Shown here: positions 26,660-63,838 of the stretch, one piece after another
Numbering within the stretch: position 1 is the first letter of the stretch
Layout: each line of letters opens with the position of its first letter
Source: Pocillopora verrucosa
Lineage: Eukaryota; Cnidaria; Anthozoa; Scleractinia; Pocilloporidae
Direction: 5' to 3'
DNA: 64,000 nucleotides
Assembly: GCF_036669915.1 (NCBI RefSeq)
Contig: NC_089324.1
Coordinates: 16,992,631 to 17,056,630, forward strand
The notes under the pieces: generated by a model
The model's input: the letters and a program-made list of their open reading frames with translations, nothing else
What the model was told of the DNA's origin: nothing
The model's database searches: none
Position numbers and translations under genes: made by a program

Positions 26660-29250
26660 ATGGCAGCCGCTCCGGACCCAGATGAGGTGTTTCGTTCTTC
26701 GAAAGGGAGAGATAATTTTCAACGTTTGGCTCGGCTTTTAATAAGTGGAGGTACTGTGCTATTGAGGGAGGTTTTTGACGTTAAATGTCCACCAAGTAAT
26801 CTACCCGCAACACTTCAGAATCCAGCCACAGAAAAGCTCCTTAAGGCAGCAAAGCTCACCAAACCACAGTGGGACTGCCTATACCCTTCTGCAGGGACGT
26901 ATGGAAAGTCAACAGACTTTGATATAACTCTCCTTTTCCGGTTGCTGAGGACAATATGCGGCCTCACCCCTCCTGTCATGGGCTGGGATTGTTTTCCTTT
27001 AAATACAGACCACAGCTTTGGAGCTGATTTAGCGAGAATTAAGTATTACCGCAATTCGATACACGGCCATGTGAACGAGAACATGGAATTAGCAGGTAAT
27101 GAGTTGTCACGTCTTTGGAAAGAAATCAGCGAGGCTCTGGTGAGAATTGCGGGTCAAATCAGCCCTGTGAAGTCCAAAGAATGGAAGACTGCTATTGATA
27201 AATTTTTAAAAGATCCCCTTACAGAGGAAGACAAGAGGCACGAGCAGGAATTGCAGCGCTGGTACCAGAATGATACAGAAGTAAAGAAATACCTTGAAAA
27301 GGTTGAATCTTCAATGAAGCATTTGGAGAAAGAAGCTCGATCCTTACAAGAGGTTCAAGAAAAAGCCCAAGATATTAAAGATGAGCTTGGAGGGAAAGTA
27401 GAATCTGCAGCCCAACAAGTGCAGCACTTGAGGCAAGACGTCAAAGACATCAAAGATTGATTAGACATAGATGGCCGACCCAATTCCTCAGCTGGAGGTC
27501 AGCTTGTTGATTTATTCTGTATATCTGTTATTAGTAAGGTATTTTCCTCTAACATAGACACTTACGCAACGTATCAGGGTTACCTGTACGGTGCACATTG
27601 TGCTCTTATTTTGACAGAAATGGCCTGGTATATTTTTGAAGCATAAAAAAAATTTCAATTAGTTAATATATAGTTACTTGACTTTAGCCGGACGACCACT
27701 CATGTTAATAGCCTGCTTTGCCTTTGTTGTAAGTGGCTAGTCGCTGCAAATAATGATACTTTTTCCCCTTACAGTTAAAATTCGAGTGCAGATTTGTTGT
27801 GCGACTAACCCAAACCCTCATTCGCGACTTGAGACATCAGAGACAGTGGTTATAACCGGTCAGGGTACCCAAGCTTGTGGCGACGAGCTGGTAATTACTG
27901 GAACATCAGGAAGAACGCCTCAAGACACACCACAAGCCATGAGATGGTAGTTACTAGTGGTACGCGCGAGGCAGTGGAACCTGTTGCATCTGCTGGTCTA
28001 CCACTCGCGGGAAGAACAGAAAGCGTCGAAGAAGCAGGTGTTGGAACCGATGCAGCACGCAACGCACAAGGAGTTTTGAATTACATCGCACACAGGTACT
28101 TTCAGACAGTTGATACAACCCAACCTGAGGAACGAAATGAGTTTCTACGGTATCTAGAAGATGTGCGCAAAGTTCTTGTCCTGGATCCCAAGTCAGGAAG
28201 TTTGATAGTAACAGTACTGTGTACTTCACTGGAGATACTGGATGCCCTCTGGTGTGACTATTGCACAGGTCACCTGAATGACATGGCACAGAAATATCTT
28301 GTGACAAAGGACGTTCTGAAGGAGTTTGACCTGATTGAGCTGAAATTGAAAACAACAATTCAGGTGGAGGAGTACATGGCTGCACGAGATTTTTTCCTGC
28401 AGGCTCCAGGTGAGCACATACAAAGTTTTTCGGAAGGTTGTCTTTAATCGAGTCAATAGAGTATCGTCTTCGTCTATGCTTTAAAACATGTGAGCATAGG
28501 TTTGCTCGTTATGTTTTTTGCATGCCTCCTCAAACATGTTCACAAATTTGTTTCACCAGATTCAGAGGGTATGATTCAAAAAATTTAATGGCCAGATCTG
28601 ATACCTGTGCACTCTCTATTTAATCGAAAGATGGGGATCGACGATGAATGGATGTGACGCAGAGAAGACCTTACGGCGACCTTTTAACATTTTATAGGAA
28701 ACTGATCTTAACATACACATTCCTAATTAAAGAGAAGGTCTTCGTTGCACGACCCGTAGTCAAGTTTAAATTGTATCCGTTGCATTTCATTTCAGTCCAT
28801 GATCCACCCGGCACGACCAAGGACAGAAATGAAGGACTTGACTCAGATTTGACAATAGAGCAAAGTCCTCTCTCAGCGACTGAAGGAACAGTCCCACATG
28901 TTGAATCTGAAACTAAGCGAAACAAAGAAGCATTCTCGGAGGGTTCCCTTATCGCCGGGGAAATGATGGTGGACCGCTCTGGTCGTAAGACTCCTGCATC
29001 TGTCGCGAGGTCATCAGTCCATGGTAGCATGCAAATCTATGTTAAAAAATTGACTGGAAATACGATTTCTTTGTGCGTGAAACCTTTAAGTACCATAGCA
29101 TATGTGAAAATTAAAATCCTAGAGCATGAAGGAATCCCGCCGGACCAGCAACGTCTTCCCTTTGCCGGGAAATGACTCAAAAGTGGCTTCTCTCTGAGTT
29201 ACTACAATATTTCGAAAGAATGTACCCTAAACTTGGATCTCTGTGGCAGA
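26660..29250 (+). pseudogene. Unit B: HEPN / TRADD-N / Ubl gene, inactivated
   Basis: Exon 1 (26660-27497) encodes an intact HEPN domain with R131-x5-H137 (YRNSIHGH) and a short helical tail, but a TGA at 27458-27460 ends the frame at a position where D and F read GAT CGA. Exon 2 (27775-28409) has a frameshift in the linker near 27930, then a TRADD-N-like domain ([34 protein letters not shown]). Exon 3 (28796-29250) has a 78-residue linker unlike D or F, then one Ubl ([12 protein letters not shown]) stopped by TGA at 29173-29175. Splice sites and phases match D. The first exon could still give a HEPN-only protein of 266 aa; otherwise it is a pseudogene. The Ubl array after the first domain has been lost. 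Confidence 0.8.
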
Positions 29251-29719
29251 AATATCTACGCACATAATCTCAATTTAGGGCACTGTTCATATTAATGTTT
29301 GCCACCCAAGAGAATAATGTACTGCTCATAAGAGTTAACAATTACCTTTGCTGATAGTTAAAATTGGTTAACTTTATATTTTTTTTCTTAGTTTCAGATT
29401 AATTTTCAAATTGTTTTGCCGACAAAACACATCTTTTATTTTCAATTTCAATTCCAGGGTCAATTCGTGGCCGGGGTGATGCTAAAAAAAATTATGAAGA
29501 AGACATTTCACTCCTACACTGTCTCTTTGTGTCCAAGGAGTGTAAATGAATTCCAACATACTATTAGGAAATTTGAAGAAATGCTGTTAGAGGGGTGGGG
29601 GGGGGGAGGGGGAGGGGTAGGGGGGAAGGGTAAGTGTGATGCAATAGCATTCTATTTAGTAGGATTTGCTTCCATTTGCTTTTTTGCTGTAGAAACTATG
29701 TGGGTTTGAGACAGGACAC

Positions 29720-29995
29720 TTAGACCGTTCCGTCTTGGAATAAAAACCAAAAATAAAAAGTAAGAGCAACTTCAATTGGTGGAAGCTCTCTTTGACCCTT
29801 GGTTAAGCCTAAAACATGCAACTTTGTTATGATAACTATGGGGTTTGATTCCAAGCACAAGGATTGGGTACTTGTATTATCATACCTAGAATATGTTTGT
29901 GCTGACGATACAGCGGCAAAACGAAGGCGCATGCTTGTAACTCGCGAGAAAGTTACGCGTGCAAAGGAATGGGAACGACAATACTTCCATAGTAA
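29720..29995 (+). pseudogene. Decayed relic of the peptidase gene 5' exon
   Basis: FVMITMGFDSKHKDWVLVLS encoded from about 29820 parallels IVAMAMEFEAKHRECVRVLT of the peptidase copies. The preceding DNA (GGAAGCTCTCTTTGACCCTT) parallels GGAAGCCTTCTCTCACCCTT at 15620. Homology fades after about 29890. Confidence 0.55.
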
Positions 29996-30659: not shown

Positions 30660-31200
30660 CCATTCAGAAAGAATCGGCCAAAAACTTGTCTGTGAAAAAC
30701 ACCCGAAAAGAAGCTTCAGACATCTTTGACAAAATGGGGGTTAGTGAAATAGGGCGTAAGTGCCTGTTTACTTCACGGACAGGCTTTTGCTTTAGCACAG
30801 GGACTACATATGAGTGCTTCCATGACGATGGCAAGCGTCCTTCATGGGACGAGGAGTTCAAGATGTTAGATACCGTACCAGCTAAAATGTCTGCGTGTTC
30901 CTTTAACAACCATCCTGGGATGTTGTCTGAACCGTTGGCTTTGCACGGGTTCAACTTTGATAGTTTCTTGCGGACTGACTCAACCGATACAACAAGGGAG
31001 TTTTCGAAGTAGTTACTGAAAGTAGTGCACAAAAAAGCAGCAGGAAGCGGTGTGAAGCAGTGCATTGGCGATAAGAAAGCCTCATTGATGATGTTAGCCA
31101 GGCCGATTTGGTCAATACCCTCATGCAGATGTTGTAGCAATTTCAAAGTGTCACTTCGCGCCGTGGAGGCAACTGAGCGCCCACTAAGCTCTTTCACTTC
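30660..31200 (-). mobile_element. LINE reverse-transcriptase N-terminal fragment
   Basis: The minus-strand frame carries KLNPCKANGSDNIPGWLLKE, LPSSWKHSYVVPVLKQKPV and LRPISLTPILSK, the fingers region of non-LTR RTs. The catalytic YxDD region is absent. The overlapping plus-strand frame at 30614-31012 is its shadow. Confidence 0.85.
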
Positions 31201-31260
31201 TTTCTACCACTCAGATGGTTTACATTTAAGGCCGTTGACCAATTTGTTGTTTTACCAGAT

Positions 31261-34234: not shown

Positions 34235-37200
34235 ATGGCTGCCGCTCTGGACCCAGATGAGGTGCTTCGTTCTTCGAAAGGGAGAGATAATTATCAGCGT
34301 CTAGCTCGGCTTTTGATAAGTGGCGGTACTGTACTGTTGAGGGAGGCATTTGACATCAAATGTCCACCAAGTAATCTTTCCACAACACTTCAGAATCCAG
34401 CCACGAAGAGGCTACTTAAGGCAGCAAGGCTCACCAAACCACAGAGGGACTGCCTGTACCCTTCCCCAGGGATGTACGGAAAGTCAACAGACTTTGATAT
34501 AACTCTCCTTTTCCGGTTGCTGAGGACAATATGCGGCCTTGCTCCTCCTGTCACGGGCTGGGATGCGCTACCGACAAGTACAGATGACAGTTTAGAAGCA
34601 GATTTAGCTAGAATCAAATATTACCGCAATTCGATATATGGTCATGTGAACGAGAACATGGAGATCTCAGATGACGAGTTTTCAGTTCTTTGGAGAGAAC
34701 TCAGCGGGGCTCTGGTGGGAGTTGCGGGTCAAATCAGCCCTGCAAAGGCAAAGGAATGGCAGAATGCTATTGATACATTTTTAAAAGATCCTCTCACAGA
34801 GGAAGAAAAGAGAAATGAGCAGGAATTGCAGCGCTGGTACCAGAATGATACAGAAGTAAAGAAATACCTGGAAAAGGTAGAATCTTCAATGAAGCATTTG
34901 GAGAAAGAAGCTCAATACGTAAGACAAAAGGTTCGAGAAGAAGCGCAAGATATTAAAGATGAAGTGCAACGCTTAGGACAAGACATCAAAGATGAGCTTG
35001 GATGGAAAGTAGAGTCTACAGCCCAAGAAGTGCAACGCTTCGGACAAGACATCAAAGATAAGCTTGGAGGGAAAGTAGAATCTACAGCCCAAGAAGTGCA
35101 GCGCTTGAGGCAAGAGTTTCGAGATGAGGCCCAAGACATCAAAGATCGATTGAAACTGGGTAGGCGACCCAATTCCTCAGCTGGAGGTCAGCATGTTGAT
35201 ATTTACTGTATATCTATTACTAGTAAAGTATTTTTCCTTTTACATAAGCACTTACGTAACGCACAAGGGTCACCTGTACGGTGCACGTTGTACACTTTTT
35301 ATGACAGAAATGGCTTCATATATTTTTGAAGCGGAGAAATGTCAATGATTTCTCGTTACTTGACTATAGCCGGACGACCACTCATACTAATTGCTTGTTT
35401 TGCCTCTGTTGTGAATGGTTAGTCGCTGCAGTTACTGACACTTTTTCCCCTTACAGTTAAAATTCGAATGCGGATTGATTGTGAGACCATCCCAGACCCT
35501 CATCCGCCACTTGAGACATCTGAGACAGCGGTTATAGCCAGTCAGGGTACCCAAGCTTGTGGCGACGAGCTGGTAGTTACTGGAACGTCAGAAGAAACGC
35601 CTGAAGATACACAGGATACCCAGGCAAGAAGGCACGAGCGTAAGGCAGTGGATCCTGTTGCATCTGCTGGTCTACCACTCGTGGGAAGAACAGAAAACGT
35701 CGAAGAAGCAGGTTCTCAAGGAGTTATGAATTTCATCGCGCGCAAGTACTTTCAGACAGTTGACACAACCAAACCTGAGGAACGAAATGAATTTCTACGG
35801 TTTTTAACAGATGTGCGCAAAGTTCTGGTCCTAGATGCTCAATCAGGAAGTTTGATATTGACAGCACTATGTAGATCATTGGAGATACTGGATGCCCTGT
35901 GGTATGACTATTGCACAGGTCACTTGAATGACATGGCTCAGAAATATCTTGTGACAAAGGACGTTTTGAAGGAGTTTGACTTGACTGAGCTGAAACTGAT
36001 AACAACTATTCAGAGGGAGGAGTACATTGTTGCACGAGAGTTTTTTCTGCAGAGTTCAGGTGAGTACACAGAAAATGTTTCGGAGAGCTGTCTTTAACCG
36101 AATGAATAGGACATCATCTTCGTCAATGCTTTAAAACACGTTAGCAGAGGTTTGCATGTTATGTTTTTTTTTTTGTTTCGTCAAATTCAGCCAGGCATCA
36201 TTCAATAAATTTAATGATCACATCAAATACTTCTGCTCTATCTATTTAATCGAGAGATGGGGATCGAGGACGGGGGGAGGCGACGCAGAGAGAGACGACC
36301 TCACGACCTTTTGACATTTTTAGGAAACTGATCTAACTCCTTTATCTTGGGTTAGCCCAAAGTAATATATATATTTTCGAGCCGATAGTTTAACAGAATT
36401 AACAAATGTCTTTGAATTGCCGGCTGAAGAATGTAAAGTCATCAATTTGAAGAATTGTTCTCTATAGATTTCTGTAAAAAGGGTAATTTATGTGACCCGA
36501 GCACTCAATTCGGCTATCCTTCTCTTTTACTGATGGACAGATTCGTACTGGGAGTAACTAAAATGATCCAAAAATACTTTCTAAAGACAGCTCAAATATA
36601 TTTTCGATAGATAAAGCTTACTATAATCAGTCACTCAGCCAATTTATGAGGGCTTTTGATGATGTTACCTGCTATATCATCTCTAATCTTGAGCGACGCC
36701 GATGTAATTTCTTTTTATATTTGTTTTTAGATAATGGTGCGCCACAACGCCTAAATCTTCATAGTGACATACAAATATTTATAAAAACAGTGACTGGAAA
36801 GACGATCACTTTGGAGGTGGAACCGTCAGACTCCATTGAGGAAGTGAAAACAAAAATTCAAGACAAAGAAGGAATCCCTGCAGATCACCAACGTCTTATC
36901 TTTGGCGGGCAGCAATTGAAAGATGGCCTTTGTCTGAGTGACTACAATGTTCCGAAAGAAGCGACTCTTTACTTGGTTTTAAGACTTCTTAGTGGCATGA
37001 AAATCTTTGTAAGAACATCGACTGGAAAGACGATTACTTTGAAAGTGGAACCGTCAGACACCATTGAGAATGTGAAAACAAAAATTGAAGACAAAGAAGG
37101 AATCCCACCGGATCAGCAACGTCTTTTCTTTAAAGGGCGGAAATTGGAAGATGGCCTTTGTCTGAGTGACTACAGTGTTCCGAAAGAAGCGACTTCTAGC

Positions 37201-38169
37201 TTGTTCTTAAAACTTCGTAGTGGGATGCAAATCTTTGTAAAATTATCGACTGGGAAGACGATCGCTTTGGAAGTGGAACCATCAGACACCATTAAGGATG
37301 TGAAAGCAAAAATTGAAGACGTAGAAGGAATCCCACCGGATCAGCAACGCCTTCTCTTTGGCGGGAAGCAATTGGAAGATGGCCGTTGTCTGAGTGACTA
37401 CAATGTTCCAACGGAATCGACCTTATACTTAAGTTTAAATCCTCGTGGTGGCATACTCATCTTTGTCAAGACTCTTACTGGCAAGATCCTTGCTCTAAAT
37501 GTGGAGCCTTCAGATACGATTAAGAATATGAAACTGAAAATTCAGAGCAAATTGGGTATCCCACCGAGCCAGTTACATCTGATCTTTAGGAGGCAAGAAC
37601 TCAAAGACCACCAAACGTTAGATGAATGTAAAGTCACAGACAAATCTTCTGTACATTTGCGACTCCAGGACGAACTTGATAGAATCCTTATAAATGTGGA
37701 GTTTCCTAGTGGAAGGAAGATCTTTATAAACGTTTCACCAGGGGATGATTTTGAGAGCGTGAGAAAGATAATCTATGATAGAGAAGGGATTCCAGTTGAT
37801 CAACAACGCCTCAGATTTGTTGGCAAAGAAGTTGTAGACAATCACCTTCCTTTGAGTGAGTACGACAATCAGATTGAATTATCTCTGCAACTGGATGTGA
37901 AACAACGAAAAAATGAATTCCTGCTTCAGGTGAAGACACGATCTGGAAAAACAAATATCAAAATTGAAGCTGTATCTGGAGATACCATCCACGATGTGAA
38001 AATGAAAATAATGGAGGAGATTGGAATACCGCCAAATCAGCAACTACTTATGTTTAACACTCAAGAAATTGAAGATGAACGCCGCACACTGGAAAGCTAC
38101 GACATCAACAGCGACTCCATCATTGAACTGGTTATTAGAAGAACACATGGTAATGAAAGGCATACTTAA
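34235..38169 (+). CDS. Gene D: HEPN - helical repeats - TRADD-N-like - six ubiquitin-like domains
   Basis: Three exons, 34235-35186, 35457-36059 and 36731-38169, join at phase-1 introns into 997 aa plus stop. Residues 1-200 form a DZIP3-type HEPN domain with R131-x5-H137 (YRNSIYGH), the spacing of the HEPN ribonuclease motif. Residues about 215-315 are charged amphipathic helical repeats ([20 protein letters not shown] type). A linker leads to a TRADD-N-like domain at about 406-519 ([32 protein letters not shown]). Residues about 533-990 are six Ubl domains. The first three resemble ubiquitin closely ([16 protein letters not shown]); the last three are diverged. The joints read LLSG-M, LRSG-M and PRGG-I, so most lack the LRGG cleavage site. 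The ATG context is AAATGGC after a TAA, which fixes the start. The role is likely signalling or RNA-directed defence, by inference only. Confidence 0.85.
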
Positions 38170-38345
38170 ACGAAAATGCAGAATGGTATAAGAACCGTAA
38201 TAGATGTATCACCGGAAGATACCATCACGGATGCAGCAGCTGATCACTTTTGGTGACACGAAACTCGAAGGTGACAACAAACTAAGCGATTTCGGTGTGT
38301 AACATGGATCCACAGTTTTAATAACTACCAGTTCTAAAACTCAGA
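38170..38345 (+). pseudogene. Decayed terminal Ubl after the stop of gene D
   Basis: In the same frame three codons beyond the TAA, MQNGIRTVIDVSPEDTITD begins a further Ubl, parallel to the open one at 58017 behind gene F. A deletion after ITDA shifts the frame and a stop follows. Confidence 0.75.
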
Positions 38346-40970
38346 AGAAGTGTATCGTAAGTTAATTAAACTAGGCTTAACACAAATCCCAAATGGAAGA
38401 CGAAGATATTCGACAGCTCCATAAAAGAACGAGACAGACTTTGCCTCAATCAGGGAAAAAGTTAAATACAATCTTTGAGAGAATCCTTTCAGCATGTTTC
38501 CTAGATCTGACCATGCAGATACCATTGATCACTAAAACTTATTTAGCCTGTATTTAGCCTGCATTGCGGGTTCGATTTTCTATTTTGTTGCTTCTGAGCG
38601 TTGTTTACTTGCTACTTTTCTTTTACAGGACAATCTCCAAAACTTTGTACACCCCCTAAATATTTTCAAAATTAACTTTCTCCTTAAAAACACTGAAAGT
38701 AGGAAAATGCCTACAACGGTAACAAAATGCCTCTGTTTTAATCGCTAGCCCCTTTTTTCTCCGCAAATTTCGCTGAATTTTTGATCTCGCGCGTTTGAGC
38801 CCGCGTTATTTACCACATACCTTTCACGTAGCATTTCGTTATTCAGCTCATCCAGCATTATCATAAGTTGCCCTAAGCAGGGGCTGGTATGTGAAAGGCT
38901 CTCCAAACGCAGATCAAAATTTTTATGAACCTGTTTCTCTTGCCTATATTAGGAAGGACTTGGAATATCGCTGTCACAAAGTAGAACTATTTTTCCCATA
39001 GGAATTTCATTAGTCGAAAGGCATCAGAATCTTGAAGCATGTAAAAGATGTTAGAATCTAAATTACGATCGGCTTTTTATAGAGACACTTATACTGATAA
39101 CGTTTTCCAGCTCAAGATATCGCGAGGTAACTATGTAACAGTCGTTTTGCTCAACCATATACCTTACGTGACAGTCTTAGCCCCTATCGCAACCTCTACA
39201 GGACGTCACGTGACATGCGAGGGAAGCTGTGATAATCTCAGATCAGATACAATCTGAGGTGAACTTTCCTCGTTAAGAATTTTGATATACTAAATGTATT
39301 GCAATTTATAGTTTTTCACTTGCGCGCGGTTGGTTTAAACGCTTCACGTGATCGAATATGCCTCAGCTAAAAATAGGGAATATCTGAGGATGTACCCAAA
39401 ATGATGTTCCCCTATTTTCAAACCTTACATCTTCTACGATAAAAGCGCTCGTTTGAAATTGAATTCAAGATGAAAGAGCATCAAGCTGCTGTTACAGAAG
39501 AAGGGACATGTTTGTTTGTTTGTTTGTTGATAAGTCATACCGCGGAACACACTGAAAAGTAAACATCCCACGCAGCAAACAGTAAGCTGTTCGTAAACAT
39601 CTTTCCTCCGCGTTGCAAAACTATTTGAAGGATAATAAACACAATACTTGTATATTTGTTCTGGAACATAAGCTATTCCTCGAAGCTCATAGCTTTCTTC
39701 TGGGTTCGCTACCAGAAAACTGTTCGCATCTCGTAACAGATTGTGTCCGCGAACAAATATTTTCTCAATAAACGGAAGCTCTTGTTTTTATATTTGCAAT
39801 ATTCACTCTAGAGTCTTAAGATATTGTGAAATAACTATGTAATAGTTTTTCAATTAAACTATATGCCTTGTGTGACAGTCTTAGTCTCTTTCGTAACATT
39901 TTCCAGGATGTCGCCTGACATACGAAACGTTAAGTCACACATGATATGGTTCTTCTCTATTTTTAACTACAAACCAAACGCAATTTATACAAACACTTTT
40001 TGCGAATTTGATGCTAGACGAGATGTGGATGAAAGTTTTTCATAGTAAACCTTATTTTATAATCCATAATTTTGAACAGGATTTGTTTCCAAATAACCAC
40101 CACTTTCCTAACTGAAGATTTTGCTCCTTATTTTTGGTAGGGTAGGAAAAGGATTGTCCTGATCACGTCTCACGCAGGAATTTCAGCAAAATTCACGCGT
40201 CACGAATTTATTTTCTATGGTGGCAATTTACATTATCAACTCAGTTAATAAAACTAAATAATCTTGTAATACCCCTTTCCACACACCCACACCCACACAC
40301 GCAGTACCTCAACTTCTTTGCAAACTCAACTTGCTCCCTATTTCTGAAAAGACACACGGCAAAATGGGATCTATTTGTTGAACAGACTGATATTTCAGTG
40401 CCATTTCCTTCAGCAAAGGTTCGTTCCTTTCCTACTGTCAGATGACTTTTCTTTTTCCTTGAGATCTACGTTTGCTTAAAAATTAACGTGCAAAATACAA
40501 ACTAAGAAATTTAATTGTCTTTACCTTGACCATGTTGACATGCGCTGTTTAAGATATGTGTGGGTTTTTTCGTCAGAAAAGGACAGCCAATTAGTGAGCG
40601 TATAAAAGGACCTCTTGTTGCAGCGTTTAGATCACCCCTAATGAAGGCACTAGACAGGAGTGTCGAAACGTTGGGTCTATGAATTGTAACTTCTCGGTTA
40701 AATTCATTAAATCTTTAAACCAGAGTAACATCAAACCATGTCTAATTGTCCACCTGGTTGCCTTGTGAACTTAAATATAGTTTAATACTATTTCCACTCA
40801 AGTGGGCGCCGTCTTCTTTCATAGTTTCTTTGTTCCACAAGATCATGGCCTTATCCTGTTTTAATTGAGTCAATTTGCTATGTTGTCAATGGCTTGTATA
40901 AGAAATGTCTCTGGAACGATTCTCGTGATTTTCTGTGATTTTCAACCAGAAATAAACCATCAACAATACT
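38346..40970. other. Array 3' flank
   Basis: Bases 38450-40450 align in blocks with 58370-59520 and 63300-63440. At 40615-40720 a short repeat (GACAGGAGTGTCGAAACGTTGGG core) recurs at 63530-63640. From 40845 the flank upstream of the next promoter module begins. No gene is seen. Confidence 0.6.
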
Positions 40971-44429: not shown

Positions 44430-46861
44430 ATGGCTGCCGCTCTGGACCCAGACGAGGTGCTTTGTTCTTCAAAAGGGAGAGATAATTTTCAACGTCTGGC
44501 TCGGCTTTTGATAAGTGGAGGTACTGTGCTAATGAGGGAGGCTTTTGACATCAAATGTCCACCAAGTAATCTGTCCACAATACTTCAGAATCCAGCCACG
44601 AAGAAGCTACTTAAGGCAGCAAAGCTCACAAAACCACAGAGGAACTGTCTGTACCCTTCCCCAGGAATGTTTGGAAAGTCAACAGACTTTGATATAACTC
44701 TCCTTTTCCGGTTGCTGAGGACAATATGCGGCCTTGCCCCTCCTGTCACGGGCTGGGATGCGCTACCGGCAAGTACAGATGACAGTTTAGAGGCAGATTT
44801 AACTAGAATCAAATATTACCGCAATTCGCTATATGGTCATGTGAACGAGAACATGGAAATCTCAGATGACGAGTTTTTAGTTTACTGGAGAGAAATCAGC
44901 GAGGCTCTGGTGAGAATCGCGGGTCAAATCAGCCTTGCAAAGGCAAAAGAATGGAAGGATGCTATTGATACATTTTTAAAAGATCCCCTTACAGAGGAAG
45001 ACAAGAGACATGAGCAGGAATTGCGGCGCTGGTACCAGAATGATACAGAAGTAAAGGAATACATGGAAAAAGTAGAATTTTCGATAAAACATTTGATAAA
45101 AGAGGCTCAATCCTTTAGAAAAGAGGTTCGAGGAGAAGCCCAAGATATTAAAGATGAGCTCGGAAGGAAAGTAGAATTTACAGGCCAAGAGGTGCAACGC
45201 TTAGGACAAGACATCAAAGATGAGCTCGGAGTGAAAGTAGAATCTACAGCCCAAGAAGTGCTGCGCCTAGCACAAGAAGTTCGAAGAGAAGCCCAAGACA
45301 TCAAAGATGAGCTCGGGGGGAAAGTTGAATCTACAGTCCAAGAGGTGCAGCGCTTGAGGCAAGAGTTTCGAGATCGATTAAACGTGATTGGCCGACACGT
45401 TTCCCCAGCTGGAGGTCAGCTTGTTGATTTTATTCTGTATATCTTTTATTAATAAAGCATTTATCTCTAACATAGGAACTTATGCAATGTATCAGGGTTA
45501 CCTGTAAGGTGCACATTGTGCACATATTTTGACGGAAATGCCTTCGCATATTTTTGAAGCGGAGAAATGTCAATTATTTCTCGTTACTTAATTACAGCCG
45601 GGCGACCACTCATAGTAATTGTCTGTTTTGCCTTTGTTGTATAAGGTCGATCGCTGCAATTAATTAGACTTGTTCCCTTACAGTTAACATTCCAATGTTG
45701 ATGGATTGTGAGACCATCCCAGACCCTCATCTGCGACTTGAGACATCAGGGACAGTGGTTATAGCCAGTCAGGGTACCAAGCCTTGTGGGGACGAGCCGG
45801 TAGTTCCTAGAACGTCAAAAGGAAAGTTTGAAAACACACAGAATACCCAGGCAGGAAGCCACGAGATGGTAGCTACTAAAGTTAAGCGTAAGGCAGTGGA
45901 ACCTGCTGCAACCGCTGGTCCATCACAGGCTGGAACATCAGAAGCCGTTGAGATAACCCTAAACCAAACCATAAAAATTACATTAGTGAGGTCAGAGGTC
46001 ATTAATCGAGATGATTTCCATTCAGAGGAACTCACCTCAAAGGAAGATATTCCGGAAGAGATTATGACAGAGCAGGGAAGTTCAGAGGTCACCAATCGAG
46101 ATGATTACGATTCAGAGGAACTCAGCTCAGAGGAAGGAATTCCGGAAGAGATTATGACAGAGCAGGGAAGTTTAGAGGTCACCAATCGAGACGATTGCCA
46201 TTCAGAGGAATTCCGCCCAGAGGAAGATATCCCGGAAGAGATAATGATAGAGCATGAAAGTTCAGAGGTCACCAATCGAGATGATTACGATTCAGAGGAA
46301 TTCCGCTCAGAGGAAGAATTTCCGGAAGAGATAATGATAGAGCACGAAAGTTCAGAGGTCACCAATCGAGATGATTACCATTCAGAGGAACTCGGCTCAG
46401 AGGAAGATATTCCGGTAGAGATCATTGCAGAGGACAACTATTCAGAGCATTCTAGTAGAGAAGACGATATCCCATATGAGGGGGATTTTGAGGATGACAT
46501 TTATGACGTAATCATCGGAGCGGAAGTCACTGCTGAGAGAGAAACACCAGACTATGCGTCTGAAAGAGACGACATTCCAGAAGAGATCGTTACTGAGGGA
46601 GATGCCTCAGAAAACATGGTTGACAATAAAAATGATATCATAGCTGATGAGGTCAGGGAAGAAAGTATCTTCCCAGCTGATTATTTATTAGAAATTGACA
46701 TAGTCACAGAGAACAAAGATGACGAAAATTATGAAGACAATTGTACAGAGGCTGTGGAAATTATTGAAGAAGCCATCTATGAAAATGAAGGTTGTTTGGA
46801 CGATTTCGCCATTGAATGCCAGCGGATTTCAATGATTAACATTCCAGATGTTTTTCAATGA
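44430..46861 (+). CDS. Gene E: HEPN - helical repeats - acidic 30-residue repeats
   Basis: Exons 44430-45414 and 45684-46861 join at a phase-1 intron into 720 aa plus stop. Residues 1-200 are the HEPN domain with R131-x5-H137 (YRNSLYGH). Residues about 215-320 are the helical repeats. The linker ([22 protein letters not shown]) matches D and F up to about residue 425, but the frame then runs into five 30-residue acidic repeats (SEVTNRDDYDSEELSSEEGI) and a 140-residue acidic tail, with no TRADD-N or Ubl. There is no splice site between linker and repeats, so the swap is fixed in the DNA, not alternative splicing. The acidic part is probably disordered. The same repeat occurs as relics in units A and C, so this exon type was once more widespread. 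Function is unknown. Confidence 0.8.
45991..46440 (+). repeat. Five 90-bp tandem repeats
   Basis: GAGGTCACCAATCGAGATGA-type units start at 45991, 46081, 46171, 46261 and 46351 with exact 90-bp period. Each encodes 30 residues rich in Glu and Asp. Confidence 0.95.
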
Positions 46862-49649: not shown

Positions 49650-50120
49650 TAAATAGCTCTAAACACCACAACAGACAGAGGCTTGTTTTGGAACCAGACA
49701 GTTTATTAAATGTATATATCCTACGTAAATAACACACTAGACTATTGCATAAAAGATATTGGATGAATACATTAAATAGAGGCTCCAGTAATCAAGAATA
49801 AATTATGAACACAAATGAGATTAAGATACAATCAAAACTATCAATGGTGTGGGTGGGAGGGAAACTAAAACTTTCTTAAAGCTAGAAATAAACTTGTTGC
49901 TCACTTGCTTGTTAGATTTCTAATAACACATGCAGGATACCCAAGCGGTAATACTAAAGTAATTTTGCAATTAAAACGCGTTAGCGTGGTGAATAGCCAT
50001 TGGCTCTACCCAAGTCTTATGACTTATATGCTGGACAAATTGCTTCTTAAAGAAAAGGGAAAATACTAATACGCACCCTGCCTGTAACCAGTCCAGGTCT
50101 CTCAGTTAACAGTGTCTAGA
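49650..50120. mobile_element. Unclassified insert between RT motifs of the LINE
   Basis: The RT reading on the minus strand is continuous in sense up to LPLCWFKANI (about 50130) and resumes with TQYVKLGHVESS (about 49640). The roughly 470 bp between have no RT homology. I could not define the ends. Confidence 0.45.
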
Positions 50121-50754
50121 TATTAATGTTTGCTTTAAACCAGCAAAGAGGGAGACCCCTGATTCTATAGGCATATAGTTTTGAGAGTAATATTTCATGA
50201 TTTACAGTATCAAATGCCTTTGACAGATCAAGGAAGACTCCACAAGATATTTTCTTTTTATCTATTGCCTCTTTTAATTTGTCAGTGACCTCTTGTGTGA
50301 CTTGTTTGGAAGAGAAGTTCTTTCAGAAGCCAAATTGATATTTATATAGAATTTCCTTTATTTCTAGGAATGAATAGAGTTGGTCATGTACCAACCTTTC
50401 AAGAACTTTCCTAAAGAGTGATAAAACTGCAGTGAGTTGGTAATTTCTTGGTTCAGTTATTAAACCATTTTTACAAACAGGAGTAACTTGAGATATTTTG
50501 AAAATATCTGGCACTACACCAGTCTTGATAGGCTCATTATAGATATATGTAAAAGGTTTTGAGAGATCCTCAGAAGCTATCCTTGTCAATTTATTTGGAA
50601 TATGTAGTGAAGTTTTGCTATCATTTAATTTAGAGAAGAGATTACAAACCTATGCTTCAATTACCTCAGATAATACAAAACTTGAGGAAGGGGAAGATTT
50701 TATGTATTTATGTCATCGTTATTCCTTATAGAACTAGCAAGTGTAGGACCTCCA

Positions 50755-50955
50755 TTAACCTTTTTAAGTCCCATGAATGACCAAGACAGAATTTCTCCTT
50801 ACAATTTCAAACAGACAGGTGATGAGAATAAAGATAAATTTAATTAAGGAATTCTTAGTTGACCCAATACTAAATTTTCCAAACTAATATCACAATAACT
50901 TTAAAGCAGATGACAAGGAGAAGTTCTAATGAGATCTTGGGAGTTAAAGGGTTAA
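50755..50955. mobile_element. TTAACCC-type MITE nested in the LINE
   Basis: Starts TTAACCTTTTTAAGTCCCAT and ends GGGAGTTAAAGGGTTAA, in the same orientation as 10625-10845. It proves that MITE activity post-dates this LINE insertion. Confidence 0.85.
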
Positions 50956-52086
50956 CAAAATATTTGTTTAGTTGATCAACAATATCAAAATTTGTTGTAT
51001 AGATTTGATTGTTGACAATGATTTTTGTTGGGTCAGATTGCCCTTCAGTTTTACAATGAATAAGAGTTCCAATTAATTTCCTTGTTGACTTCATGTTATT
51101 TTTACACAAATTGAAGTGTTTGTGATAGTATAGAGTATTGCCTCGTGACTTAAGCCTGTTAAGCTTATTTGAATATATTTTGTATTTGTCAACTTTGGAT
51201 ACATCATTTGAAAGAAAATGGGTTTGATACATTCTTTGTTTAGTTTTTATTGATTTTAGGATGCCATTTGTTATCCATGGTTTTTTTAACTGTTTTTGTT
51301 AAGTCTTAGAAATATATTTTTTTGGAGCATGCTTGTCTACTGTTATAGCTTCAATAGTTTTGGTGGCAAGCTCATGCAAGTTGGTACATTTGCTTTGAAT
51401 GGTATTCCAGTCTATAGCTCTGATATCAATTTTATATAATTCTTTATTAAATGCTCTATAGTGTCTAAAAGATATGGGATGTGCTTGGTGCTTTACTGCT
51501 GTCCCACATATGCAAAACACTGGTAAATGATCAGAAATATCTACAGTAGCAATTCCAGAGACTTTTTGTTGGTTAAAAGAATTCGTATAGGTAACATGTT
51601 GTTGGTATAGAGCATTTCTAACTAATTTTCAGTTAAAGAGTGGCTATTACATTTGAGGAAATCAATGTTCATATTCCCCAGAATAGAAACTTCATATTTT
51701 TTATGATTAAGATTTTTCAATGATGCATCTAGTTTGGAAGTAAAATCTTCTATATTAGCTGATAGGTGTCTATATATACAGCCTACTACTATATGAGCTT
51801 TGTTGTTACATGGATCAATTTCAATCCAGCATGATTCTACCAATGGCATATTCAGATCTATATCAGGTTTGAATGTAGTTTTTAAATTCTTTTAACTATA
51901 GATAATTGCATTACCAGCTGCTGTTGGTGAATCATTGTAGAGGAAGTTATAATTTATGAGATCGGTATTTGAAACTGAGTAACTATTAGGTCTTGTCTCT
52001 GAAGTCGCTATTACATCTTTCCTGTCGTTCAGATAGTAGAGCATATCATTTAATAAGTTTGAGTTCTTGGAAAGGCTTCTAATATG

Positions 52087-53083: not shown

Positions 53084-56000
53084 ATGGCTGCCGCTCTGGA
53101 CCCGGATGATGTGCTTCGTTCTTCGGAAGGGAGAGATAATTATCAGCGTCTGGCTCGGCTTTTGATAAGTGGAGGTACTGTGCTATTGAGGGAAGCTTTT
53201 GACATCAAATGTCCACCAAGTAATCTTCCCACAATACTTCAGAATCCAGCCACGAAGAAGCTACTTGAGAAACCAAAGCTTACGAAACCACAGAGGGACT
53301 GCCTGTACCCTTCCCCAGGGATGTATGGAAAGTCAACAGACTTTGATATAACTCTCCTTTTCCGGTTGTTGAGGACAATATGCGGCCTCACCCCTCCTGT
53401 CACGGGTTGGGATACGCTGCCAGCAAGTACAGATGACAGTTTAGAAGCAGATTTAGCTAGAATCAAATATTACCGTAATTCGATGTATGGTCATGTGACC
53501 GAGAACATGGAGATCTCAGATGACGAGTTTTCACGTCTTTGGAGAGAAATCAGCGAGGCTCTGGCGAGAGTTGCGGGTCAAATCAGCCCTGCAAAGGCAA
53601 AAGAATGGCAGAATGCTATTGGCAAATTTTTAAAAGATCCCCTCACAGAGGAAGACAAAAGACATGAGCAGGAATTGCAGCGCTGGTACCAGAATGATAC
53701 AGAAGTAAAGGAATACCTGGAAAAAGTAGAATCTTCAATGAAGCATTTGGAGAAAGAAGCTTACTACTCAAGACAAGAAGTTCGAGAAAAAGCCCAAGAT
53801 ATTAAAAATGTGCTCGGTGGGAAAGCAGAATCTACAGCCCAAGAAGTGAAGCGCTTAGGACAAGAAGTTCGAGATGAAGCGCAAGACATCAAAGATGAGC
53901 TCGGAGGGAAAGTAGAATCTACAGCCCAAGAAGTGAAGCGCCTAGGACAAGAAGTTCGAGATGAAGCGCAAGACATCAAAGATGAGCTTGGAGGGAAAGT
54001 AGAATCTACAGCCCAAGAAGTGCAACGCTTAGGACAAGACATCAAAGATCAGCTCGGATGGAAAGTAGAATCTACAGCCCAAGAAGTGCAGCGCCTGAGG
54101 CAAGAGTTTCGAGATGAAGCCCAAGACATCAAAGATCGATTGAAACTGGGTGGCCGACCCAATTCCTCAGCTGGAGGTTAGCTTACTGATTTTTTCTGTA
54201 TATCTATTACTAGTAAAGTATTTTTCCTCTAACATAAGCACTTATGTAACGTATCAGGGTTACCTGTACGGTGCACATTGAGCACTCTTTATGACAAAAA
54301 TGGCTTCGTATATTTTTGAAGCGGAGAAGTGTCAATTATTTATCGTTTATCAACTATGGCCGGACGACCACTCACGGTAATTGTCGTTTTGGCTCTGTTG
54401 TAAATGGCTAGTCGCTGCAATTAGTGACACTTTTTTTCCCTTACAGTTAAAATTCGAATGCGGATTGATTGTGAGACCATCCCAGACCCTCAGCCGCGCC
54501 TTGAGACATCAGAAGAAACGCCTGAAGGCAAACAGGATAGCCAGGCAGGGAGCCACGAGATGGTAGTTACTGGAGTTAAGGGTAAAGCTGTGGAACCTGC
54601 TGCAACCACTGGTCTATCACAGGCTGGAAATTTAGAAGCCGTTGAGATAGCAAATTTTGGAAGTGATGGACTACCCAGTTCACAAGGAGTTATGAATTTC
54701 ATCGCGCACAAGTACTTTCAGACAGTTGACACAACCAAACCTGAGGAATTGAATGGTTTTCTACGGTATTTAACAGATGTGCGCAAAGTTCTGCTCCTGG
54801 GTGCTCAATCAGGAAGTTTGATATTGACAGCCCTCTGTAGATCATTGGAGATACTGGATGCCCTGTGGTATGACTATTGCACGGGTCACCTGAATGATAT
54901 GGCACAGAAACATCTTGTGACAAGGGACGTTCTGAAGGAGTTTGACTTGACTGAGCTAAAACTGATAACAACTATTCAGAGGGAGGAGTACATGGCTGCA
55001 CGAAAGTATTTCCTGCAGGGTTCGGGTGAGCACATTCAAAGTGTTTCAGATAGCTGTCTTTAACCGAATAAATAGGGCATTGTCTTCGTGAATGCTATAA
55101 AACACGTTAGCAGAGGTTTGCATGCTATGTTTTTTTTATGCCCCCTCAAGCATGTTTTCAAATTTGTTATTTCACCAAATTCAGACAGGTATCATTTAAA
55201 AAATTTAATTATCCGGGATCTTGAGCTCTCTCTATGTAATAGAGAGATGGGGATTGAGGACGGAGGGAAGCGATGCAGAGACGACCCCACGACCTCTTGA
55301 CATTTTTAGGAAATTGATCCAACTCCTGTATCTTGGGCCAACCCAAAGTAGTAAATATCCCTTCAAGCCAATAATTTAACAGAATTAACAAATCTCTCTA
55401 AATAGCCGACTGAGAAATGTATGGTCATCAGTTTTCAGAAGTGTTCTCTATAGATTTCTGTAAAAAGGGTAATTTATGTGACCCGAGCACTCAATTTGGT
55501 TACCCTTCTCTCATACGGGTGGACAAACTCGTTTTGGGAGTAACTGAAACGATGGAAAAATACTTTACAAAGACAGCTTGAATTTATTTGTGATGTATAA
55601 AGCTCACTATAATCAGTCACCTGGCCAATTTATTAGGGCGTCTGGTGATGTTACCTGCTATATCATCTCTTTCCCTTTAAATTTGTTTTCAGATCATGGT
55701 CCACTTGGTATGATAAGGAGCAGAAGTATCGCAACCGGCCAAGAATCGACTTCCTGTGGAAAGCTCCACGATATTGCACTAGGAACAATGGAAAAAGGTT
55801 CAGTTGGCTCACGGGAGAGTCCGCTTCAAAAAATTGAAGGAGTCCCAGACGATATCCCTGTTTTCAAGGTTGAAGTGGAGGGAGATCCTACCCCTAAAAT
55901 GTCCTCAGGGCCACCACAACACCTAGATCTTCGAGGTGGCGGGCAAATTTCTATAAAAACAACGACTGGAAAGACAATCACTTTGGAGTTGGATCTCGAA

Positions 56001-58016
56001 ACAGACACCACAGAGAAAGTGAAAAAGAAAATTCAAGATAAAGAAGGGATACCAACGGATCAGCAACATCTTATCTTTGGCGGGCAGCAATTGGAAGATG
56101 GCCGTTTTCTGAGTGACTACAATGTTCCGAAAGAAGCGACTCTTCACTTGGTTTTAAGTCTTCGTGGTGGCATGCAAATCTTTGTAAAAACATTGACTGG
56201 AAAGACGATCACTTTGGAAGTGGAATCGTCAGACACCATTGAGAAAGTGAAAACAAAAATTCAAGACGAAGAAGGAATCCCACTGGATCGGCAATGTATT
56301 ATCTTTGCCGGGAAAGTATTGGAAGATCGCCGTTGTTTGAGTGACTACAATGTTCCGAAAGAAGCGACTCTTTACTTGGTAAAAAGACTTCGTAGTGGTA
56401 TGCAAATCTTTATAAAAACATTCACTGGAAAGAGGATCACTTTGAAAGTGGAACCGTCCGGAAGCATTGAGAAAGTGAAAACAAAAATTAAAGACATGGA
56501 AGGAATCCCACCGGACCAGCAACGTCTTATCTTCGACGGGAAGCAATTGAAAGATGGCCGTTGTCTGAGTGACTACAATGTTCCGAAAGAAGCGACTCTT
56601 CACTTAGTAATGAGACGTCGTAGTGGCATGCAGATCTTTGTAGAAACATCGACTGGAAAGAAAATCACCTTGGAAGTGGAACCGGCAGACACCATTGAGA
56701 ATGTGAAAAGAAAAATTCAAGACGAAGAAGGAATCCCACCGGCTCAGCAATGCCTTATCTTTGCCGGGGAGGTATTGGAAGATAGCCGTTGTCTAAGTGA
56801 TTACAATGTTTGGAGAGGATCGACTCTTCTCTTGGTTTCAAGACTTTATAATGGTATGCAAATCTTTGTAAAAACATTGACTGGAAAGACGATCACTTTG
56901 GAAGTGGAACCGTCAGACACCATTGAGAATGTGAAAACAAAAATTCAAGACAAAGAAGGAATCCCACCGGATTACCAGTGTCTTATCTTTGCCAGGAAGA
57001 TATTGGAAGATGGCCGTTGTCTGAGTGATTACGATGTTCGAAGAGAATCGACTCTTTACTTGGTTTTCAGAGTTCCTAGTGGCATGCAAATCTTTGTGAA
57101 AACATTGACTGGAAAGACGATCACTTTGGAAGTGGAATCGTCAGACACCATTGAGAGTGTGAAAACACAAATTCAAGACATAGAAGGAATCCCTCCGAAT
57201 CAGTACCATTTATGCTTCAATGGTCAGCTACTTAACGGTAAACGTACTCTGATTGATTACAGTGTTTCGAAAAAAGCGACCCTAGTTTGTGACATACTTA
57301 TCTTTGTAAAGACTCTCACAGGGAAGATCCTTGCTCTAGACGTGGAGCCTTCAGATACGATTAAGAATGTGAAACGGAAAATTCAGGGCAAAGAGGGTAT
57401 CCCACCAAGCCAGCAACATCTGATCTTTAGGAGGCAAGAACTCAAAGACCACCAAACGTTAGATGAATACAAAGTTACAGACAAATCTTCTGTACATTTG
57501 CGACTCGATGACGAACTTGATAGAATACTTATCAATGTTGAGTTTCCTAGTGGAAGGAAGATTTTTATAAATGTTTCACCAAAGGATGATTTTGAGAGCG
57601 TGAGAAAAATAATCTATGATAAAGAAGGGATTCCAGTTGATCAACAACGCCTCAGCTTTGTTGGCAAAGAAGTTGTAGACAATCACCTTCCTCTGAGTGA
57701 GTACGTCAATCAGATTGAATTATCTCTGCAACTGGATGTGAAACAACGAAAAAATGAATTCCTACTTCATGTGAAGACACGATCTGGAAAAACAAAGATC
57801 AAAATTGAAGCTGTATCGGGAGATACCATCCAGGATGTGAAAATGAAAATAATGGAAGAGATTGGAATACCGCCACATCAGCAACTACTTATGTTTAACA
57901 GTCAGGAAATTGAAGATGAGCGCCGCACGCTGGAAAGCTACGACATCAACAGCGACTCCATCATTGAACTGGTTATTAGAAGAACACATGGCAACGAAAG
58001 GCATATTTACGCATAA
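53084..58016 (+). CDS. Gene F: HEPN - helical repeats - TRADD-N-like - nine ubiquitin-like domains
   Basis: Exons 53084-54176, 54447-55025 and 55693-58016 join at phase-1 introns into 1331 aa plus stop, the largest intact member. HEPN is at residues 1-200 with R131-x5-H137 (YRNSMYGH). At about 215-360 are 29-residue helical repeats ([20 protein letters not shown]). The linker leads to TRADD-N-like at about 446-556. A leader ([18 protein letters not shown]) of about 80 residues precedes nine Ubls at about 640-1325. Ubl 2 and 5-6 keep [18 protein letters not shown], close to ubiquitin; the last three are shared with gene D. The equivalents of Leu8, Ile44 and Val70 persist in several units, and Lys63 (VPKEAT) in most early ones. 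Only the first joint reads LRGG-M; others are LRSG, RRSG, LYNG or VPSG. The start is fixed by homology with D and E. Confidence 0.87.
53820..54110 (+). repeat. 87-bp tandem repeats (29-residue amphipathic helix)
   Basis: Units around GCCCAAGAAGTGAAGCGC and GACATCAAAGATGAGCTCGG repeat about three and a half times in gene F, with fewer or irregular copies in D and E and one in B. No proline is seen in the unit and heptad-like hydrophobics are spaced along it. Confidence 0.8.
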
Positions 58017-58241
58017 ATGCAGGGTGGTGTAAGAATCGTAGCAGACATATCATCGGAGGATACCACCACGGATGTGAAAGGGAAAATAAAACAAATGATA
58101 GGAACGCCGGTCGACAAGCAGCTGATCACTTTTGGTGACACAAAAATCGAAGGTGACAACAAACAGAGCGATTTCGGTGTGAAACATGGATCCACAGCTT
58201 TAATGACTAACAGTTCTAACACTCAGGAGAAGTGCTCGTAA
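58017..58241 (+). CDS. Orphan terminal Ubl directly after gene F's stop
   Basis: It starts with ATG as the codon next to gene F's TAA and in the same frame, giving 74 aa (MQGGVRIVADISSEDTTTDV, then GTPVDKQLITFGD). It is a further Ubl, complete enough to include a C-terminal tail. The position, in frame, means readthrough of one stop would extend gene F to ten Ubls. It could also be a downstream ORF that is not translated. Counterparts after genes D and G are broken. Confidence 0.6.
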   Translation: MQGGVRIVADISSEDTTTDVKGKIKQMIGTPVDKQLITFGDTKIEGDNKQSDFGVKHGSTALMTNSSNTQEKCS

Positions 58242-61106: not shown

Positions 61107-61699
61107 CCGCGACTTGAGACAATGGTTATAGCCAGTCAGGGTACCCAAGCTTGTGGCGACGAGCTGGTAGTTACTGGAACGTCAGAAGGATTGTCTGAAG
61201 GCGCACAGGATAGCCAGCCAGGGAGCCACGAGAAGGTGGTTACTAGAGTTAAGCGTAAGGCAGTGGAACCTTTTGCATCTGCTGGTCTACCACTCGCGGG
61301 AAGAACAGAAGGCGTCGAAGAAGCAGGTGTTGGTAGTGAAGTTGTACCCAACGCACAAGAAGTTTTTAATTTTATCGCACATAAGTGCTTCAAGGTAATT
61401 GACCCATCTAAACCTGAGGAATTGAATGGCTTTGTACGGTATTTAAAAAAAGTGCGCAAAGTTCTGGTCCTGGATGCTCATTCAGGAAGTTTGATATTGA
61501 CAGCACTATGTAGATCACTGGAGATACTGGATTCCCTGTGGTATGACTATCGCACGGGTCACCTGAATGACATGGCTCAGAAATATCTTGCGACAAAGGA
61601 AGTTCTGAAGGAGTTTGACTTGACTGAGCTGAAACTGACAACAACTATTCAGGGGAAGGAGTACATGGCTGTACGAAAGTTTTTTTCTGCAGGGTTCAG
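61107..61699 (+). pseudogene. Unit G: TRADD-N-like exon, frameshifted
   Basis: From CGCGACTTGAGACAATGG the linker and TRADD-N-like domain ([32 protein letters not shown]) are open, with donor at 61699. A T-run of seven instead of six at 61680-61686 shifts the last codons, so splicing would leave the Ubl exon out of frame. The HEPN exon, its promoter and the acceptor of this exon are missing, replaced by array spacer. Confidence 0.75.
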
Positions 61700-62397: not shown

Positions 62398-62990
62398 ATC
62401 AAGGTTCACTTGGTATGACAAGTAGTAGAAATATCGCAATTGGCCAAGAATCGACATCCTGTGAAAAGCTCCACGATATCGCAATTGACCAACAACGCCC
62501 TAGCTTTCTTGGCCAGGAAGTCTTACACGACCACCTTACTCTGAGTGAGTACGACAATCAGGTTGAATTATCCTTACGACTGGATGTAAAACAACAGAAG
62601 AATAAGAAATTCCCTCTTTATGTGAAGACACGATCTGGAAAAATGATCACAACGGAGGCTGTATGGGCAGACACTATCCTGGATGTGCATGAAAAGGAAA
62701 ATAACAGAAGAGATGGGAACACCGGTAGATCAGCTACAACTCATGTTTGACAACCAGAAACTTGTCGATGAACATCGCACTTTGAAAAGCTACAAAGTCA
62801 CCAGAGACTCCACGATTGAACTAATTATCGGAAGAAAGTATGTAATCGAAACATTCACTCACGTTTAGAAGCAGAACGGTATTAAAATCGTAAGCGGTGC
62901 ATCACCGGAGGATAACATTAGAAACGTAAAAGAGAAAATATGGAGGACATGACAAGAACACCGGTTAACGAGCAAGGAATCATTTTTGAT
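62398..62990 (+). pseudogene. Unit G: shortened Ubl exon
   Basis: After TTTCAG the leader (GMTSSRNIAIGQESTSCEKL) joins directly into the middle of a late Ubl (IDQQRPSFLGQEVLHDH), so all ubiquitin-like early repeats have been deleted. A frameshift near 62690 breaks the last Ubl, which goes on in another frame (GTPVDQLQLMFDNQKLVDEH). After TAG at about 62866 a broken terminal Ubl follows (KQNGIKIVSGASPEDN). Confidence 0.8.
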
Positions 62991-63699
62991 TAAAAAAGAC
63001 TCAAAGGTGACAACACCTGAGTAAGTGAGGAATTTAGGCGAAGAACATGCATGAATCCACACTGTCTGTGACCACTGTATCTCTGACACTGTTTCATATA
63101 CTCTGTTGGTAACGACTGATCTCTCCTCTGTTCATCAGACGGTAAATAGCGACTGGCCCCTTATCGTCGGTGTGATGAAGTCAATGAGAGGCTCTGCAAG
63201 AATAAATCAAAATGATTATGAACTTTTATATTTTGCCTTTCTTAAGGTGTTGCTGAAAAAAAAAAGTTTTCTCAAAATCATGAAGCGTTTGTAAGAGATT
63301 TAGGAATATAACTTTCAATAGCCTTTTTCTATAGAGATATTAATGATAACATTAATTTTCCAATATTCATTCTTGAGTCTCAAGATATCGCGCACTAACT
63401 ATGTAACAGTCGTTTTATTAAACTACATTTCTTGCATGAATTTGATGTTAGTCTCCTTTCGCAACCTTTCCCCGGGATGTCACGCCTATTTACACCTCGT
63501 CAGAAAAAAGGGCAGCTGATTAGTGAGCATATGAAAGGACCTCTTGTTGCAGCGATTAGATCATCCCTGATGAAGGCACCAGACAGGAGTGTCGAAACGT
63601 TGGGTCTATGAATTGTAACTTTTCGGTTACATTCACCAAATCTTTAAACCATCATCATCATCTTTTGATGCCCTACCATCCCTTCCCTTATGTTACCTT
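62991..63699. other. Array 3' flank
   Basis: 63300-63440 matches 38980-39180. 63530-63640 repeats the element at 40615-40720. No gene seen. Confidence 0.6.
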
Positions 63700-63838
63700 T
63701 TTGTTGGGCTTTCCCATGATACGCTGCGAACCCATTGACTTCGGCTTTTCACGGGTGTGAGAGCAAATGTGCATGTCTGCCGACACTAAAGAATCACAGA
63801 CAGAAGTTCGATGTGGTTCGAATGAAAAAACTCCAAAG
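63700..63838 (+). promoter_or_regulatory. 5' exon/promoter module 6, for a unit beyond the window
   Basis: GATACGCTGCGAACCCATTG to the donor AAAG|GTAAG at 63838/63839, with a 22-codon frame (MSADTKESQTEVRCGSNEKT) as in module 4. First-intron sequence continues to the window end, so another array member is expected about 1.3 kb downstream. Confidence 0.65.

Follow-up and report, generated by a model that had tools for sequence, protein, structure and literature searches.

We analysed a stretch of 64,000 nucleotides from the coral Pocillopora verrucosa (contig NC_089324.1 of assembly GCF_036669915.1, here C13:16992631-17056630; the genome comprises 353 Mb in 52 contigs), referred to below as the window. 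It carries a tandem array of genes in which a HEPN exon, a TRADD-N-type exon and a long exon of ubiquitin-type units follow one another on the same strand (Table 1). For copy D, the first donor was fixed at 35187 and the remaining sites were searched near the exon ends; one combination of sites gave a full open frame of 997 amino acids (aa), with both introns in phase 1 and of GT-AG type. The ATG of D exon 1 lies immediately 3' of an in-frame TAA, and a 66-bp repeat in this exon corresponds to the 22-aa helical repeats. Copy F gave 1331 aa with two phase-1 GT-AG introns; its second donor had two workable sites 6 bases apart, of which the better (CGG|GTGAGC) was chosen. The exons of variant E can be joined into 720 aa, and its second exon gave no Pfam match in the scan. 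No frame-keeping join was found among the donor/acceptor combinations of copy A, and there was no HEPN match between F and the TRADD-N exon of copy G.

The array runs on beyond the window, with a relic (H, at place L033) and an open copy (I, at L034). Copy I, 9 kb past the window, is a third open copy and encodes 1032 aa; its acceptor was moved 6 bases downstream because the usual acceptor is without its AG. In copy J (L035), 0.9 Mb away, the HEPN exon is open and the ubiquitin frame long, but other sequence has taken the place of the TRADD-N exon's 3' end. Copies A, G and H are broken. The joined frame of I ends in KKCIVS (L034:4983-5003), as does the ubiquitin-like (Ubl) tail of H (L033 near 6290), and this end resembles a CaaX box. 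D and F stop one Ubl before the end of I; 3' of the stop in F, the last Ubl continues in the same frame to EKCS.

The first-pass annotation had described D and F as complete genes joined across three phase-1 junctions; the single open frames agree with this, except that two junctions suffice. The variant copy that it had pointed out was recovered as E, in which acidic repeats replace the TRADD-N core, and two of its relics as the broken copies A and G. Its proposal of a single three-part protein with an RNase-type head likewise gained support from the joined frames and from the HEPN motif described below. It is well supported at the level of sequence that the array is genuine and that D, F and I would each be read in one frame as a single three-part protein.

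Table 1. Parts of the array within the window
Feature	Position	Strand	Content and basis
Older HEPN relic, frameshifted	23512..23962	+	exon-3 head fragment 24599-24712; second HEPN fragment 19086-19258
Copy A HEPN exon	26660..27337	+	open frame; PF18738 132.9 bits
Copy A TRADD-N exon	27774..28402	+	frame broken between linker and core
Copy A ubiquitin relic	28933..29241	+	one internal TGA
D exon 1	34235..35186	+	HEPN_DZIP3 ~34367-34807, then 22-aa helical repeats; PF18738 137.7 bits, splice model
D exon 2	35457..36059	+	linker and TRADD-N core 35714-36052, invariant Gly-Ser; phase 1 on both sides, relatives above PF20694 cut-off
D exon 3	36731..38169	+	six ubiquitin-type units ~36769-38151, stop 38167-38169; PF00240 x6
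D last Ubl, 3' of stop	38170..38365	+	out of frame; end reads KKCIVS in another frame
Variant E exon 1	44430..45414	+	HEPN_DZIP3 and helical repeats; PF18738 145.4 bits
Variant E exon 2	45684..46861	+	shared linker start, then acidic 30-aa repeats replacing TRADD-N core; frame open to stop
F exon 1	53084..54176	+	HEPN_DZIP3 and helical repeats; PF18738 142.9 bits
F exon 2	54447..55025	+	linker and TRADD-N, core 54680-55018
F exon 3	55693..58016	+	nine ubiquitin-type units ~55941-57992; PF00240 x9
Copy G TRADD-N exon	61179..61685	+	relic
Copy G Ubl relic	62478..62841	+	Ubl remnant

HEPN head, TRADD-N exon and the wider family

As the first-pass annotation had expected, the HEPN_DZIP3 profile (PF18738) matched the first exons of copies A, D, E and F (four of the four exons tested) at 132.9-145.4 bits, against a cut-off of 27. 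The R-x5-H motif was intact in seven of seven copies and lies at about 34625-34645 in D. A solved-structure profile search with exon 1 gave matches confined to the helical repeats. The head is well supported as a predicted RNase-type HEPN domain.

The TRADD-N exon was identified less directly. Exon 2 of D and of F gave no Pfam match at E<=10, and that of G gave only E=0.11; the expected TRADD-N profile was found in relatives instead. Among 90 places in the genome that resemble D exon 2, 42 overlap places above the cut-off of PF20694 (23.7). Of four relatives scanned, L042 and L043 scored above it (29 bits), and L047 (22.1) and L036 (17.3) below. At E<=1, the profile matched 14 of 16 aligned members, with D among the misses. 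Gly45-Ser46 was invariant in all 16, and we placed this pair in the turn that links strand 2 to strand 3 from the description of TRADD-N by Kaur, Iyer, Burroughs and Aravind (2021; PMC8195603), which reports a conserved small residue and Ser in that turn. A solved-structure profile search with TRADD-N gave 0 matches, and one with exon 2 taken singly also gave none. Because the relatives match PF20694 and D and F do not do so directly, exon 2 of D and F is assigned to the TRADD-N type by a chain of relatives. No Death-like partner domain was found among the Pfam matches of the D and F exons (for exon 1, the best 25 of 45 or 46 families); such a partner is usual with TRADD-N, not obligatory.

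Across the genome, 150 HEPN_DZIP3 places were listed, with scores for 150 of 267 candidates; for TRADD-like_N, 61 places stood above the cut-off. When the 150 HEPN places were paired with 90 TRADD-N-like places within 5 kb, 28 pairs were obtained on 23 of the HEPN places, all on the same strand. The TRADD-N exon lies downstream of each of these 23, the sole upstream pair being the neighbouring relic G, and each of the 19 HEPN places most similar to D, counting D itself, has such a partner. Frames farther on, which are candidate splice targets, contain TPR repeats in L042, NB-ARC in L046 and, in L043, a weak match to a PARP14-type KH domain, below the cut-off. At C5:20.82-20.84 Mb (L036 and L037), a GT4-conflict frame (scanned in L036) precedes a TRADD-N exon that shares about 60% identity with its counterpart in F; this C5 exon is present in three equal-scoring copies within 11 kb. 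The text of Kaur et al. describes cnidarian TRADD-N proteins of the DEDD2 clade with an N-terminal HEPN domain, and names polyubiquitin and GT4 among the fusion partners of this clade (PMC8195603); a coral genome paper also notes many DZIP3-like HEPN domains (PMC10236652). The 23 paired places of 150, taken together with Kaur et al., therefore indicate that the D and F genes are a variant within an immune family that shuffles its parts.

Alternatively, the exons could belong to separate neighbouring genes, which we regard as very improbable and rejected because the frames join and the exon order recurs. In D, F and I, canonical phase-1 sites join the exons into one frame, the HEPN-TRADD-N order is repeated at the paired places, and the best-scoring frame-keeping join (sum of donor and acceptor scores) is in phase 1 in L042, L043, L046, L047, K and E.

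Selection on these parts was assessed by the ratio of nonsynonymous to synonymous change (dN/dS, or omega). The NG86 values between D and F were 0.31 for HEPN, 0.26 for TRADD-N and 0.26 for the terminal Ubl triplet; the D-I and F-I values were 0.25-0.45, and the terminal Ubls overall gave 0.26-0.46. The dS between D and F (0.15-0.20) was close to the intron divergence (0.15-0.16). A deficit of private nonsynonymous changes was found in the HEPN domains of F, I, A and D (Fisher p 0.009, 0.006, 0.042 and 0.049, respectively), in the TRADD-N of A (p 0.010) and in the terminal Ubls of D (p 0.0014). The same test was not significant for the HEPN domains of E and J, the TRADD-N of D, F and I, and the terminal Ubls of F, I and J, and the HEPN domain of K showed no constraint (ratio 0.99). 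Copy G looks dead, with private changes in its TRADD-N at 1 synonymous to 17 nonsynonymous.

Ubiquitin-type units and selection on their surface

As the earlier annotation had predicted, exon 3 matched the ubiquitin profile (PF00240); there were six matching stretches in D and nine in F, and the stop-to-stop frames of 535 and 822 aa remain open. We compared 26 units from D, F, I and J (6, 9, 6 and 5, respectively; one very weak stretch of I was excluded) with the genome's own ubiquitin. Identity ranged from 25 to 67 of 76 residues over the 26 units and from 55 to 67 of 76 in ten proximal units (D1-3, F1-5 and I1-2), which are arranged head to tail at 76-residue spacing; F exon 3 contains a 228-bp tandem repeat at 55929-57203. 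Gly-Gly was kept at 4 of 22 junctions (D3, F1, I1 and I2), LRLRGG at 2 of 22, and Gly-Gly at 0 of 4 C-termini; its loss at 18 of 22 junctions suggests a chain that is mostly left uncut. Leu8, Ile44 and Val70 were jointly kept in 4 of the 26 units (F2, F5, I1 and I2), and two units of copy I keep Leu8, Ile44, His68, Val70 and LRLRGG. Among 29 places listed in the genome, this type of ubiquitin tail was found only on C13, in the array and at 16.11 Mb; the remaining places hold either canonical polyubiquitin (on C9) or matches that are short or weak. A replacement of K48 by Gln with K63 kept was considered as a rule for the units and rejected, K48 being kept in 9 of 26 units and K63 in 8 of 26. 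Separately, between I1 and I2, the two best-kept ubiquitin units of copy I, there are 8 nonsynonymous changes and 0 synonymous ones.

Selection tests were performed on the ten proximal units over 76 aligned positions. The other 16 units, which are divergent or chimeric or belong to J, were excluded, as was a single inserted residue in F1. The core set comprised 15 positions and the extended Ile44 face 12, and the codon likelihood was a purpose-written implementation. Pooled pN/pS over the 45 pairs of units was 0.77. Nonsynonymous departures per site numbered 0.73 in the core and 2.39 at other positions, and omega on the extended Ile44 face was 2.0 (bootstrap 1.4-3.0). Four site classes fitted better than one (twice the log-likelihood difference, 2dlnL, 45.1 with 3 degrees of freedom), with omega 0.40 for the core, 2.7 for the face, 2.3 for the tail and 0.92 for the rest, and fixing the face omega at 1 cost a 2dlnL of 18.4 (p 9e-6). 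The M2a model was preferred to M1a by 19.5 on the FastTree tree (p 6e-5) and by 32.8 on a star tree. Sites above 0.8 under M2a were 8, 25, 33, 46, 48, 49, 68 and 71 on the tree, and 8, 46, 48, 49, 68 and 71 on the star; six of the eight tree sites lie in the face or tail (hypergeometric p 0.004). We also simulated the M1a null, with 40 rather than 50 optimiser steps, and completed 88 of 120 planned simulations; of the 44 runs that lacked recombination, 0 reached 19.46, the highest being 4.2. That is, as estimated from codons, the ten proximal units conserve their core and change on the Ile44 face faster than neutral.

Possible function and competing explanations

We read the tail as a putative diversifying binding surface and not as a plain ready-made ubiquitin chain. 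It is quite possible, if somewhat short of probable, that these are intracellular immune proteins of an expanded HEPN - TRADD-N - variable tail family, in which the tail would be the recognition end and HEPN the output. More doubtful is the narrower proposal of an immune sensor with an integrated array of diversifying, mostly uncleavable ubiquitin units, which would serve as bait or as a variable receptor for the ubiquitin handlers of invaders and would be wired through TRADD-N to the HEPN RNase. In the mechanism that we envisage, the diversified ubiquitin face of the tail would bind proteins that recognise ubiquitin, which most likely come from invaders or are the host proteins that invaders target, and tandem, mostly uncleavable units would raise avidity. 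Binding would alter the state or clustering of TRADD-N, and HEPN domains would be brought together; once gathered, they might cut RNA, so that translation or the invader would be halted. The KKCIVS end of copy I would permit prenylation and membrane placement, the frames of D and F ending before it. The role of TRADD-N as the switch would follow the proposal put forward in the text of Kaur et al. (PMC8195603).

Several points weigh against the reading of a diversifying immune tail. The tests took in just 10 of the 26 units, and a single omega for these ten was 1.16, with no difference from 1. The face set was fixed after the variable sites had been seen, although the M1a/M2a comparison needs no such set. 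The M1a/M2a controls gave no signal (HEPN, p 0.84; TRADD-N, p 0.96; terminal Ubl, p 1), but they were less powerful because they comprised 7, 4 and 4 sequences, respectively; in the TRADD-N control, nine sites exceeded 0.8 in a class of omega 1.27 that the test did not support. When four blocks were freely permuted in the null, 1 of 44 runs reached 19.46 (highest 20.3), and therefore part of the signal could come from gene conversion among the units. The signal is strong for units that descend along a tree and moderate for units that have been heavily mixed. The last Ubl is lost from D and F, and part of the tail would therefore be undergoing erosion. Finally, an immune function is suggested by resemblance to the family and by Kaur et al., and the case is built on the genomic sequence of one species.

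Some of these points would suit a tail that arose by a single capture, grew through slippage, had its units mixed by gene conversion and is now drifting, with selection on HEPN and TRADD-N alone. The overall proximal omega of about 1.16, the lost last unit of D and F together with the relics A, G and H, and the single recombinant run that reached the statistic are what such a passenger would leave behind. We nevertheless consider it rather unlikely, given that the core is constrained (omega 0.29-0.4), the 535- and 822-aa frames are open and the terminal Ubls show dN/dS of 0.26-0.46. The first-pass annotation had proposed a pre-built chain, that is, a tail that mimics an uncuttable linear (Met1-type) chain and recruits ordinary host partners without an E3. 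The 76-residue head-to-tail spacing of the proximal units, the 18 of 22 junctions at which the absence of Gly-Gly makes cutting unlikely, and the two well-kept units of copy I accord with it, and a mostly uncut chain is indeed suggested. A generic scaffold fits poorly: the face changes fastest in the ten units, where true ubiquitin receptors would select against such change, and the Leu8, Ile44 and Val70 patch is kept in 4 of 26 units. We consider this explanation unlikely. Quite unlikely, in our estimate, is a tail that acts as ubiquitin bait, in which the HEPN RNase is released when the tail is touched by invader enzymes whose business is to bind, cut or modify ubiquitin. The leftover Gly-Gly junctions (4 of 22) beside junctions without them, the arms-race-like change on the enzyme-facing side and the conserved head could be expected of a bait; yet a bait should resemble true ubiquitin, the patch is gone from most units, and we know of no invader partner of the tail.

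Ubiquitin is among the slowest-changing proteins, and the faster-than-neutral face hints at an arms race. If the diversifying-surface reading is true, a kept fold with a face that changes faster than neutral would be a route by which animals make a core signal a contest surface. We know of no established trigger for HEPN - TRADD-N proteins. The locus would offer a concrete test of invader sensing by these proteins, which the text of Kaur et al. proposes from domain order (PMC8195603).

Other features of the window and comparison with known systems

Elsewhere in the window, two long frames at 7823-9874 and 15556-17328 (683 and 590 aa) are closely alike by eye; the former has TPR repeats in front, and the latter gave no Pfam match. 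Their shared part has SCHHVM or SCDHFM and GDSGA stretches, which we take to be trypsin-type protease-like. We also take 13334-14134, 30664-31203 and 49151-51628 to be reverse transcriptase-like fragments; in Pfam, the first gave RVT_1 at E=0.06 (below the cut-off) and the other two gave no such match. Retrotransposons near TRADD-N genes are noted in the text of Kaur et al. (PMC8195603). Two abutting DUF3987 frames lie at 20902-22182 in one register with a stop between them (17.7 bits, below the cut-off, and 38 bits, above it). Between the two old HEPN fragments, 16-bp tandem repeats of the GATCTACCGATCCATC type are present in opposite orientation at 19337-19764 and 23215-23433.

ISG15 and other immune ubiquitin-like proteins are ubiquitin-fold modules in immunity and are said to evolve fast; unlike these, the modules here are a permanent part of a HEPN - TRADD-N protein and have no conjugation Gly-Gly end. 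With polyubiquitin precursors the tail shares 76-residue head-to-tail units and the 228-bp tandem repeat, whereas Gly-Gly is present here at 4 of 22 junctions and 0 of 4 C-termini, and the units are not near-identical to ubiquitin. The head resembles the HEPN_DZIP3 family (DZIP3/hRUL138; Anantharaman et al. 2013) in its profile score above the cut-off and in the R-x4-6-H-type motif reported for HEPN (PMC3710099). The difference is that the partners listed for this family in PMC3710099 (TPR, Zn-ribbon, RING, Ankyrin, CARD, NACHT, DEATH and LRR) do not include ubiquitin.

The first-pass annotation had suggested that the three-part architecture was new, which mostly did not hold: HEPN-TRADD-N and polyubiquitin fusions of the clade are already in the text of Kaur et al. 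(PMC8195603). The HEPN - TRADD-N - polyubiquitin triple and selection on the ubiquitin face were not found stated in the literature searched (text rather than figures or supplements), and the text of PMC8195603 states neither these nor the Gly-Gly loss. The D and F exons also differ from the DEDD2-clade proteins in having no Death-like domain among the Pfam matches shown. They are like them in the Gly-Ser pair, the N-terminal HEPN, the expansion within one genome and the varied partners, including GT4 and polyubiquitin (PMC8195603, text). The protein class thus seems largely known, and the novelty seems to lie in the ubiquitin units.

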